Of a stretch of 64,000 nt of DNA, positions 13,770-20,420 are shown piece after piece; position 1 is the stretch's first letter, and each line of letters begins with the position of its first letter. The translations under genes were made by a program, and so were the position numbers. The stretch covers positions 3,370,501-3,434,500 of the forward strand of contig NZ_CP020700.1 in assembly GCF_003932715.1 (NCBI RefSeq). The letters are read 5' to 3'. Below the pieces are notes generated by a model that saw only the letters and a program-made list of their open reading frames with translations, did no database searches and was not told the origin of the DNA. This stretch comes from Streptomyces tsukubensis (GTDB lineage Bacteria; Actinomycetota; Actinomycetes; Streptomycetales; Streptomycetaceae).

Positions 13770-14549
13770 TTACGCATCCCCGCCCCGCAGCAGGGGCAGA
13801 TCGTCGCCCCACGCGTCGAACACCGGCCCGTGGCCCCAGGCCCGCGCGTGCGGTTCGAGTTCGGTGACCAGCCGCCGTATCGCCGCCGGGCCCCGCGGGC
13901 CCAGCACCTCGCCCAGCAGCGGCAGCAGCCGCTCGGCCGACCACTCCGGGCGGCTCAGCGGATGGTGCCGCAGCTCCCAGGCCAGATACTTGTTGTAGGG
14001 CCGCACCCGGTTGTGGGCCGCGAAGACATAGCTGAGGAAGTACGGCACGGCCTCGGCCGCGTCCAGCCCGGCCGCCAGCGGCTGCCCGTCCCGGTCACCC
14101 TTGAGGGAGCGGTAGGCACTGCTGAGGAAGGCATCGAGCTGCTCGGGCGCGAGGACGGTGCTCTCGTCCCGCCCGAGGGTCCCCTTCGCCGCGACGAGAT
14201 CACCGATCAGCCCGTCGGCCGTGTCCATCTCGACCTTGGCATGCGCGAACGCGTACCGGTTCCACTCGGTCCCGGAGCCCGGCAGCGCATGCACCCGGAA
14301 CTCCGCCAGCGGCAGCACCATCACATTGATCAGGACGTCCGGCCGGATCAGCGCGGCGGGCAGCGTGTCGCTTCGCGCGGCGTCCTCGACCACGAGATAC
14401 ACGTCATAGCCCGAATGCTCGGTCGCCAGCTCCTCCCGGGTCCGCGAGCCGGTGAGAACGAGCCCGAGCACCCGGTGGTCCCTGCGGACCCGGTTGAGCA
14501 GCGCGGCGTACTCCTCGGCAGCCGCGGCGGCTGAGGCGATAGCGGTCAC
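13770..14549 (-). CDS. Nucleotidyltransferase-fold protein, unknown substrate
   Basis: 259 residues. The N-terminus has GSRTREEL followed by YDVYLVVED, matching the GS...DxD/E core of Pol-beta-like nucleotidyltransferases, though spacing between GS and the acidic pair is longer than usual and the first acidic residue must be checked. The C-terminal half (AYRSLKGDRDG, YVFAAHNRVRPYNKYLAWEL) looks like the helical domain seen in aminoglycoside-adenylyltransferase-like proteins. Convergent with the P-type ATPase gene. Could be a nucleic-acid or small-molecule nucleotidyltransferase; I cannot choose. Confidence 0.7.
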   Translation of the reverse strand: MTAIASAAAAAEEYAALLNRVRRDHRVLGLVLTGSRTREELATEHSGYDVYLVVEDAARSDTLPAALIRPDVLINVMVLPLAEFRVHALPGSGTEWNRYAFAHAKVEMDTADGLIGDLVAAKGTLGRDESTVLAPEQLDAFLSSAYRSLKGDRDGQPLAAGLDAAEAVPYFLSYVFAAHNRVRPYNKYLAWELRHHPLSRPEWSAERLLPLLGEVLGPRGPAAIRRLVTELEPHARAWGHGPVFDAWGDDLPLLRGGDA

Positions 14550-14589: not shown

Positions 14590-14852
14590 AGTCACCCACC
14601 AAACACGCGTGCGCGTGGCTCGGGGGTTTGCCCGGGGGTTCCGTCTCCCCCATGGCCCGAGGCCGTCGGGCCCCGGGCCCCGGCCCGGGGGTGCCGTTGC
14701 CCGCGGGGTGCGGGTGTGTTGGGCCCCCGGGCCCCGGGGTGGGCGTTGCCCGCGGGGTGCGGGCAGCTCCTGCGTTGGGCCTCGGGCCCCGGGGGGCGGG
14801 GGTTGCCCGCGGGGTGCGGGCTGCTCCTGCGCCTCAAGCGCCGGCGGGGCTG
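14590..14852. repeat. G+C-rich tandem repeat block ahead of element A
   Basis: The 19-mer GTTGCCCGCGGGGTGCGGG occurs at 14696, 14745 and 14802, separated by GGGCC/CCCGG-rich linkers. The block ends in CCTCAAGCGCCGGCGGGGCTGA (14831-14852), an intergenic motif common in Streptomyces genomes. The same block, shorter, precedes element B at about 18750-18860. No gene is supported here. Confidence 0.75.
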
Positions 14853-14860
14853 AAAGATTG

Positions 14861-15367
14861 GGTGACCGTTGCTCCGTGGTGTAGGTCGCCGGTCCTGCCG
14901 GTGCGGGTGGGTCGGTGGCCTCCGGGCTCACCTCCTCGCAGACTGCGATGCACCGCCCGAAACACGTCCGGTCTTGTCGCAGCCTGCTGCGGGGGCGACC
15001 CTGCACCCCCCTCCCACGTGATCCCCGCACGATCAGTCGCCCAAGGTCCTCGGTGTCGTTGCGCGTCACCGGGGAGGCGAAACTCTCCTGATCACCGCCC
15101 CCGGAAGACACCACCCTCTCGGGGCACAGGCACCCCCTGATCTGCGGGGACCACGTGATGGGTGACTGCGCGAACTCCGTTCTCCCCGGGATCAAGTCGG
15201 GTGTCTCGGGAGGGGGGTGCAGGGTCGCCCCCGCAGCGGACCTGCGACAAGCACAGTTTGCCCAAGCACAGTGCATCGCAGGCCGCGAGGAGGTGAGCCC
15301 GGAGGCCCACGACCCGGCCGCACCCGACAAGACCCCGCGCCTACACCACGGAGTAACGCGACCCGAC
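14861..15367. repeat. Inverted-repeat element A (~507 bp)
   Basis: Two arms of roughly 160 bp point inward. GTTGCTCCGTGGTGTAG (14868-14884) is mirrored by CTACACCACGGAGTAAC (15341-15357), and further blocks match (CTCCGGGCTCACCTCCTCG, then GCGATGCAC...CTTGTCGC, then GGGGGCGACCCTGCACCCCC). Between GCGATGCAC and CTTGTCGC each arm holds exactly 19 bases that differ between the arms (14954-14972 and 15252-15270). The ~200 bp centre is not palindromic. A second copy lies at 18867-19372 in the same orientation. No convincing protein is encoded. It could be a MITE-like element or encode a structured RNA. Confidence 0.85.
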
Positions 15368-15468
15368 CACCGGAGGACCCGCACCCCGCAGGGGCAGCAC
15401 CTCAAGCCACAGAGCCTGCACACCGCAGGTGACCCGCCCCGGGGCACAGGGGCCCGAGGCCCCCCGGC
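15368..15468. other. Spacer between element A and the sacsin-like gene
   Basis: Contains short palindromes such as GCAGG...CCTGC and GGGCCCGAGGCCCC that may terminate the sacsin-like transcript. No gene seen. Confidence 0.4.
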
Positions 15469-18400
15469 TCAGCCCCCTGCGGTCGCGGCGGGCGGCGGGC
15501 CGTCGAACCAGCGGTCGCGGGCCAGTTCCTCCGTGCGCGAAGAGTCCTCCAGCAGCGCCGCGACCTCGAAGCGGCGCGGCCACTGGCCCGCCGCCCAGGC
15601 CAGGCCCGCCGCCACGCCCTCCAGCGTCGCCGCGTGGACCACCCCGTCCGGCGTACGCCGCCAGTCCAGTTCCACCCCGCCCGCCACCAGCTCCTCGTGC
15701 TCGACGTACGTCCGCGGCGTCGCCGGGCCCAGCAGCACCCGTACCGGCTCCGGTACGTCGTGCTCCTCACCTTCCGTCGTCACCTCGGCCCGCACCGTCT
15801 CGCTGAGCCGCCGTACCTGGAACAGGTCCGCCAGCTCCGCCGCCCGCTCCGGGCGCACCGGGAGCAGCGGCAGCCCGCCCGTCAGCGGGATCAGGTCCGG
15901 TACGTCCGCGACGACCGCGTCCGCCGCGTCCACGACCCGCACCTCGCCGTCGACGACCGCCCGCAGCTCGTCCGGGAGCGTCACCTGGTCCGGGTCCAGG
16001 TCGGCCAGCGCCGAGTACAGGCCGTGGAGCTGTGCCGCGCCCACCGGCCGGTCCGGGTCGGCCAGCCGGCCCAGGAGTTCCGCGCCGCCGCCGGGCTCGT
16101 CGATGAGGGCCGCGACCGAGGTCCGTACCCCGAGGGCGCGCAGCACCTGCGCATCGTCGAAGCCGGTCGCGTCGACCGCCTCGTACAGCCCGGCCAGCAG
16201 GGGGTCGCCGCCCGCGGCGCGCAGTCCCGCCGGGCGCCGGCCGTCGAGCACCGGATGGTCGCGGAGCCACCAGGCCGTGTAGGGCCGTACGGTCTCGGTC
16301 GTCCCGTCGGGCAGCAGTACCCGGACCGGCTGGGTGAGCGCGTCCCGCAGCGGCGGCAGGGCGAGCAGCGCCAGGGCCTGCGGCCAGCAGTCGTCGTCGA
16401 CCAGGTCCAGATCGCGTACGGCGACGATCTCGGTGGCCACCGGCGGGACCGGGGTCTCCGGCAGCCGGTCGAGGACGTCCTCGCACCAGACGTCGACGGC
16501 GTCCAGCAGGCCCGCGTCGTCCGGTTCGGCCCAGTCCCCGTCGCGGGGCTCCAGCTCGTCCGGGTCGAGGACCACGTCCGTGGCCCGTACCAGGGTGAAG
16601 TTCGCCAGCACCCCGCAGGCAGCGAGCGGCTGCTCGCCCCACCGGTCGGCCAGTTCGGTGTCGACGTAGGCGAGCGCGTCCTCCCGCATGACCGCAGCGA
16701 AGGGGCTGCCGGGGAGCACCAGCTCGCCCGCCGGGGCGGTCTCGCCGTCCTCGTCGGGCAGGGCGAGGGCGCCCAGCCACGGTTCGTCGCCGGGCTCCAG
16801 CTCCGCGTCCCGGGCGAGTCCGAGGACGGTGTCGGCGAGTTCGTCGGCGTCGAGGGCGTCCGGCGCGTTGTCGTCCCAGATCTCGCCCGCTTCCAGGGAG
16901 CCCGCGACGGCGGCCCGTACCTGCGGGGTGGTCAGCACGGCACGCGGGGAGGCGGGCAGTGCGCCCAGCTTCTCCAGCAGCGGGTGCGCGGCGTCCGCGT
17001 GGGCGACCTTGAGTCCGAGGCGGGCGAGGCGGTCCCGGATGCCGGGGGCGGTGTCCGGGAGGGGCAGGAGGACCTGCCGGGGTCCGATGACCGTACGCCC
17101 GTCGGCGAGCGGCACCGGAAGGCCCGTCAGCCGGTCGGGGTCGACGCCCGCGAGGCTGTCGTACAGCCGCCACCACCAGCCCGGCTCCCGCTCCAGGCCC
17201 GCGAGCCGGTCGATGGCCTCCGTCAGCGGCACCCGGGCCACACCGACGGTCCGCAGCTCCACCCGCCGTTCGAGACCGGCGGGCAGCAGGGTGGGCAGGA
17301 CGTCGGACAGGACGCGTACGGTGTCGGCGCCCGCGCCCTCCAGCACCTCGGCCTCCACGGGCCGCAGCGCACCCGGGCGGTCGGCCTCCGGCAGCCCCGT
17401 CTCCTCGCCGTCCGGCACTTCCGGGCGCGGCGCGGCGGGCTGCAGGAACGCGGTACGCGGCAGCAGCTTCAGGATCTCCGCCCGCAGTGAACCGTCCAGC
17501 TCGCCCTTGCCGAGCGGGCCGGGCACCAGGTCGATCGTGCCCGTCGACACCGGTTCCCAGGTGCCGAGCAGTTCGGCGTACGCCTGCGCGGCCCGCTCGA
17601 CGAGGAAATCGGTCAGCGGTCCGGGCGCGGGGTGGCGGCGGGCGGTGTCCAGCGGCAGGGAGGCGATGAGCAGTGCGGGTACGCCGAGGGGTTCGTCCGT
17701 CGGCGTCGGCGCGTGCACCACGGGTTCGGTCGCCGGGCGTACGGGGGTGCCGTCGCCGTCGACCGGTACGGCCCAGGTCACCGACCAGTAGGGGCGCAGC
17801 CGCTCCTCGACCGGACGGTCCTTCAGGAGGGCGGGGTCGGTGGCGCCGTGGTGGCTGACGGTCCGCCAGCGGCGCGTGCCGTTCCCGGAGCCACCGGAGT
17901 CTTCGATACGGACGTACGGCCCGTCGGCGGCGCGGGTGAGGGTCCGTACGCCGTCCGGGGTGTCGATCACGATCTCGGCGAGGCCGGTGAGGGTAAGGAG
18001 GAGGGCGTCGTCGACGGTACGGAGGAGCTGCCCGACGAGGTCGGCGGCCGCACCGTCGCGGAGCGGGAGCACGACGACGGTGTCGTAGCCGTCGGGTGCG
18101 GTGCCCTCGGCGGGCAGCGGCAGCCGGAGCGTCGGTACGTGACCGTCGCGGCGCTTCAGCTCTTCCGCGAGAGCGGTGTTCCGGTCCGCCGCCTCCTCCG
18201 CAAGCGCCCGGGCCTCCGCGAGGGACCAGCGAACACCGCCGTGCCGCCCGAGGACGGCGGGCTCGTCGCTGACCGCGAGCACCGCGGCGAACCCGACACC
18301 GAACCGTCCGACGGTGCCGCTGTCGTGGGCCTCGTCCCGTTTGGCGGAGGCGCGGAGGGTGCTGAGGGACTCCACCCCGGCCGCGTCCAGGGGGGCGCCC

Positions 18401-18666
18401 GTGTTGGCGGCAGCGAGCGTGTTCTCCCGGAGCGTCAGCCTGAGCCGGCCGGGGGTACGGGCGCGGGCCGCGGCGTCGGCGGCGTTCTGCGCCAGCTCGA
18501 CGACGAGGCGGTCGCGGTAGCCGCCGAGGACGAGGTCCTCCTCCGCGTTCGCGTCCTCCCGGAACCGTGCGGGCACGGCGGCCCAGGCGTCGAGGACCCC
18601 GCGCCGCAGACGTGCGGTGCCGAAGGGGTCGGGGGTGCCGGGCGCCGCTTCGCTCACGCTGCTCAC
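15469..18666 (-). CDS. Large sacsin/HSP90-type (GHKL) ATPase-domain protein
   Basis: 1065 residues from GTG at 18664-18666, chosen because GGAG lies seven bases upstream; an ATG five codons earlier lacks a site. ELAQNAADA (57-65) is the N-box (ExxxNAxDA) and TVGRFGVGFAAVL (118-130) a glycine-rich ATP-lid motif, as in the sacsin N-terminal ATP-binding-like domain. The rest is acidic, mostly alpha/beta, without a recognisable catalytic domain. Sacsin-like modules are thought to act in chaperoning; the bacterial role is unknown. DUF3027 lies upstream on the same strand, a neighbourhood I recall from other Streptomyces. The gene is framed on both sides by inverted-repeat elements A and B. Confidence 0.85.
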   Translation of the reverse strand: MSSVSEAAPGTPDPFGTARLRRGVLDAWAAVPARFREDANAEEDLVLGGYRDRLVVELAQNAADAAARARTPGRLRLTLRENTLAAANTGAPLDAAGVESLSTLRASAKRDEAHDSGTVGRFGVGFAAVLAVSDEPAVLGRHGGVRWSLAEARALAEEAADRNTALAEELKRRDGHVPTLRLPLPAEGTAPDGYDTVVVLPLRDGAAADLVGQLLRTVDDALLLTLTGLAEIVIDTPDGVRTLTRAADGPYVRIEDSGGSGNGTRRWRTVSHHGATDPALLKDRPVEERLRPYWSVTWAVPVDGDGTPVRPATEPVVHAPTPTDEPLGVPALLIASLPLDTARRHPAPGPLTDFLVERAAQAYAELLGTWEPVSTGTIDLVPGPLGKGELDGSLRAEILKLLPRTAFLQPAAPRPEVPDGEETGLPEADRPGALRPVEAEVLEGAGADTVRVLSDVLPTLLPAGLERRVELRTVGVARVPLTEAIDRLAGLEREPGWWWRLYDSLAGVDPDRLTGLPVPLADGRTVIGPRQVLLPLPDTAPGIRDRLARLGLKVAHADAAHPLLEKLGALPASPRAVLTTPQVRAAVAGSLEAGEIWDDNAPDALDADELADTVLGLARDAELEPGDEPWLGALALPDEDGETAPAGELVLPGSPFAAVMREDALAYVDTELADRWGEQPLAACGVLANFTLVRATDVVLDPDELEPRDGDWAEPDDAGLLDAVDVWCEDVLDRLPETPVPPVATEIVAVRDLDLVDDDCWPQALALLALPPLRDALTQPVRVLLPDGTTETVRPYTAWWLRDHPVLDGRRPAGLRAAGGDPLLAGLYEAVDATGFDDAQVLRALGVRTSVAALIDEPGGGAELLGRLADPDRPVGAAQLHGLYSALADLDPDQVTLPDELRAVVDGEVRVVDAADAVVADVPDLIPLTGGLPLLPVRPERAAELADLFQVRRLSETVRAEVTTEGEEHDVPEPVRVLLGPATPRTYVEHEELVAGGVELDWRRTPDGVVHAATLEGVAAGLAWAAGQWPRRFEVAALLEDSSRTEELARDRWFDGPPPAATAGG

Positions 18667-18737
18667 GGTGTGACTCCGCATCTGTCGTCGGTTGCGCCGA
18701 AGGTACCGTGGCGCCTCCCCCTGGGGTTCCTCGCCCC

Positions 18738-18859
18738 GGGGTCCCCGGGGTCCCGTTTCCCGCGGGGTGCGGGCTGCTCCTGCGTTGGGCCTCGGGCCCC
18801 GGGGCGGGGTTGCCCGCAAGGTGCGGGCGCTCCTGCGCCTCAAGCGCCGGCGGGGCTGA
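18738..18859. repeat. G+C-rich repeat block ahead of element B
   Basis: A shorter version of the block at 14590-14852: TTTCCCGCGGGGTGCGGG and GTTGCCCGCAAGGTGCGGG units with the same GCTCCTGCGTTGGGCCTCGG linker, again ending in the CTCAAGCGCCGGCGGGGCTG motif. Confidence 0.75.
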
Positions 18860-18866
18860 AAGATTG

Positions 18867-19372
18867 GGTGACCGTTGCTCCGTGGTGTAGGTCGCCGGTC
18901 TTGTCGGGTGCGGGTGGGTCGGTGGCCTCCGGGCTCACCTCCTCGCGGCCTGCGATGCACCGCTCCACGGGGAGCCCTGCTTGTCGCAGGCCACTGCGGG
19001 GGCGACCCTGCACCCCCCTCCCACGTGATCCCCGCATGATCAGCCCCCAAGGTCCCGGTGATGTCGCGCGTCACCGGGGAGGCGAAACTCTCCTGATCAC
19101 CGCCCGGGGAGATATCCCCTCCTCGGGGCACAGGCACCCCCTGACCTGCGGGGACCCCGTGATGGGTGACTGTGCGAACTCCGTTCTCCCCGGGATCAAG
19201 TCGGGTGATCTCCGGAGGGGGGTGCAGGGTCGCCCCCGCAGACGGTGGCGACAAGCAGGGCTCCCCGTGGAGCGGTGCATCGCCGCCGGCGAGGAGGTGA
19301 GCCCGGAGGCCCACGACCCGGCCGCACCCGACAAGACCCCGCGCCTACACCACGGAGCAACGCAACCCGACC
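18867..19372. repeat. Inverted-repeat element B (~506 bp)
   Basis: Second copy of element A in the same orientation. Terminal blocks are GTTGCTCCGTGGTGTAG (18874-18890) and CTACACCACGGAGCAAC (19345-19361). In this copy the 19-base segments in the two arms (18961-18979 and 19256-19274) are exact reverse complements of each other, so the arms match without a gap for 36 bases there. They differ from both segments of element A. The central ~200 bp closely resembles that of element A. Confidence 0.85.
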
Positions 19373-19517: not shown

Positions 19518-20420
19518 CTACGCGTGGCCGAGGTCCGCGTCCTCCGGCTCCTCCTCGCGCAGCGAGAACGCGTCCGGCGCGACGGAGTCCAGCACCGGCG
19601 GCGCCGGCTGCGGCGGCTTCGGCATGACCGCGGCCTCGGAGTGCCCCCCGCAGCCGTACGACAGGGACACGACGCGCCCGTCCGCCGGGGAGAACTCGTT
19701 CGCGCAGATCCCGAACGCCTGGGACAGGGAGCCCGTGATCGGCACCAGGAATCCGCAGGAGACACAGGACGCGGGGGCGGCCTGGGCCATCGGGGTCTTC
19801 GCGCCGAAGGATTCGTCCCAGCGGTCGGCCGCGGTGTGGAGCCCGTAGCGGGACAGGACCCGGGCTCGCCGCATGCCCAGTTCCTCCGCGAGGGAGGCGA
19901 TCGCGCCGCGCCCGTTGAGGACGGTGTCGGCGGGGCGCCGGTCGGTCAGCTCGGCGTCCTCCTCCTCGACGCGTTCGGCGAGGTCGTGGGAGGTCCCGGT
20001 GAGGACGGAGTTCGGCGGTGGGGCGTCCTCGCCGGAGTAGCCGGGCTCCAGTCGGAGATCGTCGGCCTCGGTGGGCAGCAGATCGCCGGGGCCGAGGTCG
20101 CCGGGGCGGAGCCGTTCGCTCCAGGGCACCCATTCGGGTGCCAGGAGGGCGTCGGGTCCGGGCAGCAGAACGCTCTCGTCGAGGGTGACGACCTTGGCGC
20201 GGGAGGCGCGGGCGACGGTCACGGCCCAGCGCCAGCCCCGGTAGCCGGGCTCCTTGCATTCGAAGAAGTGCGTGACGACCCGGTCCCCGTCGGCGACGAG
20301 GGACAGGTGCTCGCCCACTACTCCTGGGGCAGCGGTCTCCTCGGCGGCCGCCCTGGCAAGTTCCACCGCCTCGGCGCACAGACGGTCGGGGGTACGGCTT
20401 CTCGTCGTCGCAGCACTCAC
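19518..20420 (-). CDS. DUF3027 family protein
   Basis: 300 residues from ATG at 20418-20420 (MSAATTRSRTPDRLCAEAVE). The N-terminal half, with VVTHFFECKEPGYRGWRWAVTVARA, is the conserved DUF3027 core. The C-terminal part has cysteines in C-x-x-C (SCVSCGFLV), then GICANEFSP and SYGCGGHSE, a probable zinc or metal site. The acidic tail reads REEEPEDADLGHA. Function unknown. Upstream and co-directional with the sacsin-like gene, though separated from it by element B. Confidence 0.82.
   Translation of the reverse strand: MSAATTRSRTPDRLCAEAVELARAAAEETAAPGVVGEHLSLVADGDRVVTHFFECKEPGYRGWRWAVTVARASRAKVVTLDESVLLPGPDALLAPEWVPWSERLRPGDLGPGDLLPTEADDLRLEPGYSGEDAPPPNSVLTGTSHDLAERVEEEDAELTDRRPADTVLNGRGAIASLAEELGMRRARVLSRYGLHTAADRWDESFGAKTPMAQAAPASCVSCGFLVPITGSLSQAFGICANEFSPADGRVVSLSYGCGGHSEAAVMPKPPQPAPPVLDSVAPDAFSLREEEPEDADLGHA

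Follow-up and report, generated by a model that had tools for sequence, protein, structure and literature searches.

Paired hairpin repeats beside a sacsin-like gene of Streptomyces tsukubensis: a probable REPIN/BIME-like family with no apparent RAYT

Introduction

What kind of element keeps a fixed sequence frame around a short segment that changes from arm to arm? The question is raised by two elements, A and B, in a stretch of 64,000 nucleotides from Streptomyces tsukubensis (contig NZ_CP020700.1, positions 3,370,501 to 3,434,500), the whole of which is called the window here. An earlier note on this DNA regarded such a design as unusual and offered as options an element like a miniature inverted-repeat transposable element (MITE), a cassette for recombination or inversion, a structured RNA bearing a specificity loop, or covarying hairpins. 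We show here that A and B are copies of a Streptomyces repeat family that is undescribed within the literature searched, and we consider it fairly probable that they represent a family of miniature interspersed hairpin repeats resembling repetitive extragenic palindromic doublets forming hairpins (REPINs) and bacterial interspersed mosaic elements (BIMEs), one that looks to be without a REP-associated tyrosine transposase (RAYT). Judged from sequence, the family combines dispersal, near-invariant boxes and covarying stems with a hypervariable tip of narrow length, and is further marked by an intergenic bias towards gene 3' ends, by occupation of orthologous sites and by turnover of the inner sequence within genomes. 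Since a fixed frame with a variable segment is the usual look of REPIN/BIME-like hairpin repeats, the finding is less strange than first thought.

Results

Elements A and B are members of a dispersed family

The two inverted-repeat elements with paired arms are real. In the inverted-repeat search the arms of B (18873-19021 and 19214-19362) are 149 nt each, 89% complementary and spaced by 192 nt, while A follows the same plan in pieces (14867-14901 with 15324-15358, 14900-14953 with 15271-15324, and 14986-15015 with 15208-15237). The covariance model of the family finds exactly four hairpin cores in the window, with E-values of 1.5e-16 to 5.4e-14. All four arms carry the blocks named by the earlier note in the order it gave, with a single base different in the right arm of A (GTTACTCC instead of GTTGCTCC). 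As it had also described, three distinct 19-nt segments occur, the two of A differing from each other and the two of B being identical. Their constant length holds for the four arms of the window but not genome-wide: among the 31 uninterrupted arms of the source genome the segment is 19 nt long in 20 and 20 nt in 11, with 18 different sequences, the commonest of which occurs five times. The features are as follows.

14867 to 15358, unstranded: element A, inverted pair of two hairpin arms (inverted repeats; 88% identity to B over its whole length, matched by B in the genome-wide search)
14908 to 15020, plus strand: A left arm, hairpin core (covariance model, 90.5 bits, E 1.5e-16)
14919 to 14938, plus strand: A left box1, CCTCCGGGCTCACCTCCTCG (sequence; 1 of 620 cells off the majority in 31 arms)
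14954 to 14972, plus strand: A left variable tip segment, 19 nt (sequence)
14987 to 15006, plus strand: A left box2, CTGCGGGGGCGACCCTGCAC (sequence; 0 of 620 cells off the majority in 31 arms)
15203 to 15316, minus strand: A right arm, hairpin core (covariance model, 90.5 bits)
15286 to 15305, minus strand: A right box1 (sequence)
15252 to 15270, minus strand: A right variable tip segment, 19 nt (sole genome occurrence at up to 3 mismatches)
15217 to 15236, minus strand: A right box2 (sequence)
18873 to 19362, unstranded: element B, inverted pair of two hairpin arms (149-nt arms, 89% complementary)
18915 to 19027, plus strand: B left arm, hairpin core (covariance model, 86 bits)
18926 to 18945, plus strand: B left box1 (sequence)
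18961 to 18979, plus strand: B left variable tip segment, 19 nt (one of five exact genome copies, all within family arms)
18994 to 19013, plus strand: B left box2 (sequence)
19208 to 19320, minus strand: B right arm, hairpin core (covariance model, 78.5 bits)
19290 to 19309, minus strand: B right box1 (sequence)
19256 to 19274, minus strand: B right variable tip segment, 19 nt, identical to that of B left (one of five exact genome copies)
19222 to 19241, minus strand: B right box2 (sequence)

With one arm as query, the source genome (G000) yields 33 arms at 21 places, namely 12 inverted pairs and 9 singles, plus one 29-nt fragment; two of the 33 arms are broken by an insert. Such a number is far beyond chance. 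The covariance model, whose use on Streptomyces genomes the earlier note had suggested, finds relatives in 16 of 392 of them, and an order-wide sample is positive in 8 of 293 genomes, all from one of nine genera and three of them known already. The pattern GCTCACCTCCTCGN{40,70}GGGGGCGACC occurs in 5 of the 392 genus genomes (31, 36, 23, 10 and 1 times), with none for the reversed pattern among the matches listed, and also in 66 stretches from named genomes; these are all Streptomyces, of eight species or strains. Plasmid and phage collections contain no match to element A, and Rfam 15 gives none over the window at the gathering score and none over element A at E up to 1. No description of the family was found in the open-licence papers on Streptomyces repeats, and one may exist elsewhere.

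At one locus (L205 of G094, 1501-2180) three successive arms, two direct and one inverted, form what resembles a small cluster. The order-wide search gave three model hits in G492, one of them short, within 31 kb, and the nearby genes have no transposase matches; these copies look as if they may have been imported with a chromosomal segment. Open reading frames were listed between close copies in G118 and G255.

Each arm can fold as one imperfect hairpin with covarying stems

Each arm can be folded as one long imperfect hairpin consisting of an outer stem, box1 (CCTCCGGGCTCACCTCCTCG), an inner stem, the tip and box2 (CTGCGGGGGCGACCCTGCAC). The pairing of the two 20-nt boxes with each other includes a bulge, a T.G pair and an A.C mismatch. 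Across 31 arms of the source genome, which were found independently of the boxes and exclude the two interrupted arms and the 29-nt fragment, the cells off the majority number 1 of 620 in box1 and 0 of 620 in box2, compared with 263 of 1829 for the outer arm and 270 of 1488 for the stretch between the boxes. Pairwise identity is accordingly 0.997 and 1.0 for the boxes, 0.81 for the outer arm and 0.63 for the variable segment. A larger set of 119 cores was collected partly by exact pattern and re-screened throughout for near-intact boxes, so that box conservation in it is partly chosen.

In distant clades (e.g. G094, G179, G182, G203, G228) the part of the box between CCTCCGG and CTCC varies, and its partner tends to vary with it. 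In 12 distant-clade sequences 91.4% of cells pair (shuffled 76.1), both sides have changed in 16 of 33 pairs (shuffled 12.0); the score for covariation reaches 0.410, compared with 0.138 for shuffled sequences and 0.029 to 0.094 for slid partners. A 60-sequence alignment (A1; 60 of 62 non-redundant cores, two left out by choice), in which most box pairs are invariant and the outer stem pairs most poorly (76% of cells), has 90.9% of cells paired (shuffled 85.1) and a score of 0.155 (shuffled 0.063; slid partners 0.039 to 0.073). The structure of alignment A4 was drawn from one of its own sequences, and is thus biased towards them. Folding as DNA gives z-scores of -1.54, -2.90, -2.60 and -0.76 for the four window arms on the arm strand, and of -1.91, -2.56, -2.65 and -0.21 on the other strand. 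Thermodynamics alone is thus no proof of the hairpin; it is established by covariation. The covarying hairpins that the earlier note had mentioned as an alternative are therefore what the stems bear out, with the variable segment as the hairpin tip.

Two side observations concern the arm itself. Copies from three species (L008 and L009 in G000, L134 in ficellus, and L073, L076 and L090 in noursei) contain, close to where the inner stem meets box2, an insertion of another short hairpin repeat that ends in ACCCCCA, and two CB03234 copies (L103, L105) carry an apparent remnant at the same place. In all arms box1 includes TCACCTCCT, which we take to be the sequence of the 3' end of 16S rRNA (anti-Shine-Dalgarno), and its complement GAGGAGGTGA resembles a strong ribosome-binding site.

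The variable segment is a hairpin tip

How freely the tip varies differs between genomes. The tips of 26 CB03234 copies are about as unlike as unrelated DNA (0.36 over the least conserved ten bases; the search partly selected the boxes of these copies), among noursei copies this stretch reaches 0.76, and in G228, G179 and G203, with two copies read per genome, arms of the first type have tips that match exactly or differ at a single base. We conclude that the variable segment is a hairpin tip that is free in sequence within a narrow range of lengths. At one CB03234 locus (L135) two inverted copies, at 713 and 5170 (a distance of 4.4 kb), have the same tip except for one base, where most tips of this genome differ widely; this suggests conversion between neighbours.

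A tip so variable within so fixed a frame might instead be a specificity segment, i.e. a guide, set in a constant scaffold, whose targets would be DNA or RNA. The sharp borders and narrow length range of the segment would suit a guide, as would the CB03234 tips with their fixed adjoining boxes. However, when the three window segments were searched for targets, by sequence alone, as the earlier note had proposed, their matches in the own genome at up to 3 mismatches did not exceed those of a reversed control: the first matches only itself, for the second the count outside the repeats is 11, each with 3 mismatches, and the control likewise gives 11, and the third has 5 against 7, of which one has 2 mismatches (best 17 of 19). 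Viral contigs contain no exact match to the segments, and the near-constant tips of G228, G179 and G203 count against a guide. On this evidence a guide function, be it as the specificity loop of a structured RNA or otherwise, is very unlikely. We give equally little credence to a combined scheme in which an enzyme system other than RAYT would read the boxes as single-stranded DNA or RNA hairpins, with the tip as a copy-specific address that is rewritten within the genome, the dispersed copies working together as addressed units.

Copies lie between genes and persist at orthologous sites

None of the 119 cores lies inside a called gene (111 judged, 8 without flank; some places were fetched twice). 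Gaps that bear an element are convergent in 19 of 45 cases and divergent in 1 of 45, and other gaps are convergent in 39 of 252 and divergent in 63 of 252, giving a convergent excess (Fisher p 1.3e-4) and a divergent deficit (Fisher p 1.4e-4) in 49 loci of at least 6 kb, some possibly overlapping, with our own gene calls. Copies stand at orthologous intergenic sites in different species, e.g. in CB03234, noursei and G234 at one locus. The repeat has the same orientation in 12 of 14 orthologous locus pairs (21 comparisons; the pairs are partly non-independent, and one has a single aligned flank), which favours inheritance over random re-insertion.

The inner part of the repeat behaves differently from its site. 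Orthologous copies have an inner identity of 0.735 (21 comparisons), no higher than the 0.735 of non-orthologous copies of the same species pairs (742), and are less alike than copies within CB03234, noursei or G234 (0.797; 540). These comparisons show concerted evolution of the inner part, through gene conversion or repeated replacement.

The positions and the box conservation could also be those of an element selected by the host in its transcripts, such as a (bidirectional) terminator at 3' ends, an mRNA stabiliser or a multicopy small structured RNA. Its boxes are near-invariant in every copy, its stems covary, its orthologous sites are retained mostly in one orientation, and convergent gaps are strongly preferred while divergent ones are avoided; a passage of PMC1590033 states that intergenic stem-loops cluster at gene 3' ends in many bacteria and that repeat families there may be co-transcribed, which would agree with such a role. 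Against it, the family is confined to the minority of Streptomyces genomes given above, varies in copy number, has no Rfam match and keeps no conserved orientation towards one gene. The strand signals also conflict, since the box pairing keeps T.G on the arm strand, and two inner-stem pairs read C.A 53 times and T.G never. We therefore hold a transcript element to be possible but rather doubtful.

The remaining 2 of the 14 orthologous pairs, in which the repeat is reversed relative to its flanks, bear on the recombination or inversion cassette of the earlier note, in which the inverted arms would be recombinase sites that flip the DNA between or around them. Two arm types do stand in inverted pairs across many species. 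However, the copies read have no gene between the arms of a pair, 9 of the 21 places in the source genome hold a single arm, and ordinary recombination between inverted repeats gives the same outcome. Inversion has occurred at some loci, but nothing points to a cassette, which we think extremely improbable.

In the window, A is flanked by a gene that matches nothing in Pfam (13770-14549) and by the stop of a gene with weak likeness to sacsin (15469-18681; Pfam SACS, E 0.00018, under the curated cut-off). B stands between the start of this second gene and a DUF3027 gene (19518-20318). The length of the gap between the DUF3027 and sacsin-like genes is uninformative, because in relatives it ranges from 115 to 803 bp without a box (four read forward). 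In G228, G179, G203 and G094 the arm pair is nested in another inverted pair, formed by an intergenic repeat that has CCGTCCTCAATCGCCGGACGGGCTT. In the window, A and B share one upstream neighbour, an intergenic repeat (GCGCCTCAAGCGCCGGCGGGGCTGA) at 14823-14853 ahead of A and at 18829-18859 ahead of B, which resembles the repeat that brackets the arm pair in these other clades.

Discussion

We propose that A and B are members of a REPIN/BIME-like family in which each arm is one long imperfect hairpin and arms of two types are mostly arranged as an inverted pair. The boxes would be putative recognition sites of a trans-acting enzyme and/or a host protein. Copies would have been spread by a trans-acting enzyme and then overwritten, either by the same enzyme or by gene conversion. 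The tip would only have to fold, and may change fast for that reason. Dispersal, intergenic position and the occurrence of pairs beside singles fit a miniature non-autonomous repeat, so the MITE-like option of the earlier note stands in this part; the enzyme that should go with such an element was not found.

Y1_Tnp is the family that contains RAYTs. Several results weigh against our proposal, of which the first concern this family: Y1_Tnp (PF01797) is absent from 11 of the 16 positive genomes (present in 0 of 5 and in 5 of 11), the one match classified in each of the five genomes that have it is of IS200 type, scoring 20 to 26 bits with the RAYT model against a cut-off of 80, and no repeat stands in the loci of these five matches. 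In the 12 distant-clade sequences the pair types do not exceed those of shuffles, and in the 60-sequence alignment neither the pairs changed on both sides (10 versus 9.6 shuffled) nor the pair types (23 versus 26.9) are above chance. By folding alone, some window arms hardly stand out (z -0.21 to -2.90), the right arm of B being no better than shuffles. The second arm type of CB03234 is as similar to its noursei orthologs as among its own copies (0.771 in both cases). Finally, at two loci that hold the repeat in one species and lack it in the other the borders could not be aligned, and they gave neither a clean empty site nor a target duplication.

The RAYT search covered 16 positives; six unclassified matches (five in G081, one in G203) and five later positives lie outside it. 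Within these 16 genomes no association with a RAYT was found, and Y1_Tnp is also present in 2 of 10 genomes negative for the family. In a non-exhaustive search no transposase gene was recognised among 23 scanned proteins of the window and of copy neighbourhoods, including 17 neighbour proteins of the low-copy genomes G492, G099, G584 and G113. A RAYT does not seem to be what spreads the copies.

REPINs are regarded as RAYT-dependent. A Streptomyces family with the REPIN plan, two distinct hairpin types in inverted pairs, boxes that stay fixed while the rest changes and no RAYT identified would mean either that a different enzyme can support such a way of life, or that the hairpins serve the host itself; if neither applies, the family is an ordinary interspersed repeat that annotation can recognise by one covariance model. 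Several species have copies at the same sites but with different inner sequences, which also makes the family a natural test case for gene conversion among short repeats. The value of a follow-up lies in the missing enzyme and in what keeps the boxes fixed.

How does the family compare with known systems? The bridge RNA of IS110 and the guide RNA of IS200-IS605 share with it a structured scaffold with variable loops, but the 23 scanned proteins include no recognised transposase and the tips have no targets in the tests made. MITEs are short, non-coding and dispersed and have inverted repeats, as this family does, whereas its arms are hairpins in themselves, with no related transposase gene among the neighbours scanned and no target duplication at the two loci compared. 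The BIMEs of enterobacteria are likewise intergenic mosaics of two related hairpin types in inverted orientation; carrier genus and box sequences differ, and the two are not known to be alike in sequence. BIMEs are mentioned in PMC1590033. From the REPINs, as portrayed by Bertels and Rainey (2011, PMC3116915), the family differs in its longer ends (20 nt), which are only imperfectly complementary to each other, in its inverted pairs of two distinct hairpin types, in its tens rather than hundreds of copies, in being without an identified RAYT in the 16 genomes, and in its bias to convergent gene ends. What it shares with them is a pair of conserved inverted ends around a less conserved spacer of fairly constant length, the capacity to form one long hairpin, compensatory changes in the spacer, and many extragenic copies with singles beside pairs. 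Two conserved inverted ends and a hairpin-forming spacer with compensatory changes are seen here in the alignments and pair counts, and many extragenic copies in the 33 arms of the source genome and in the 119 cores, none of them in a called gene (8 without flank).

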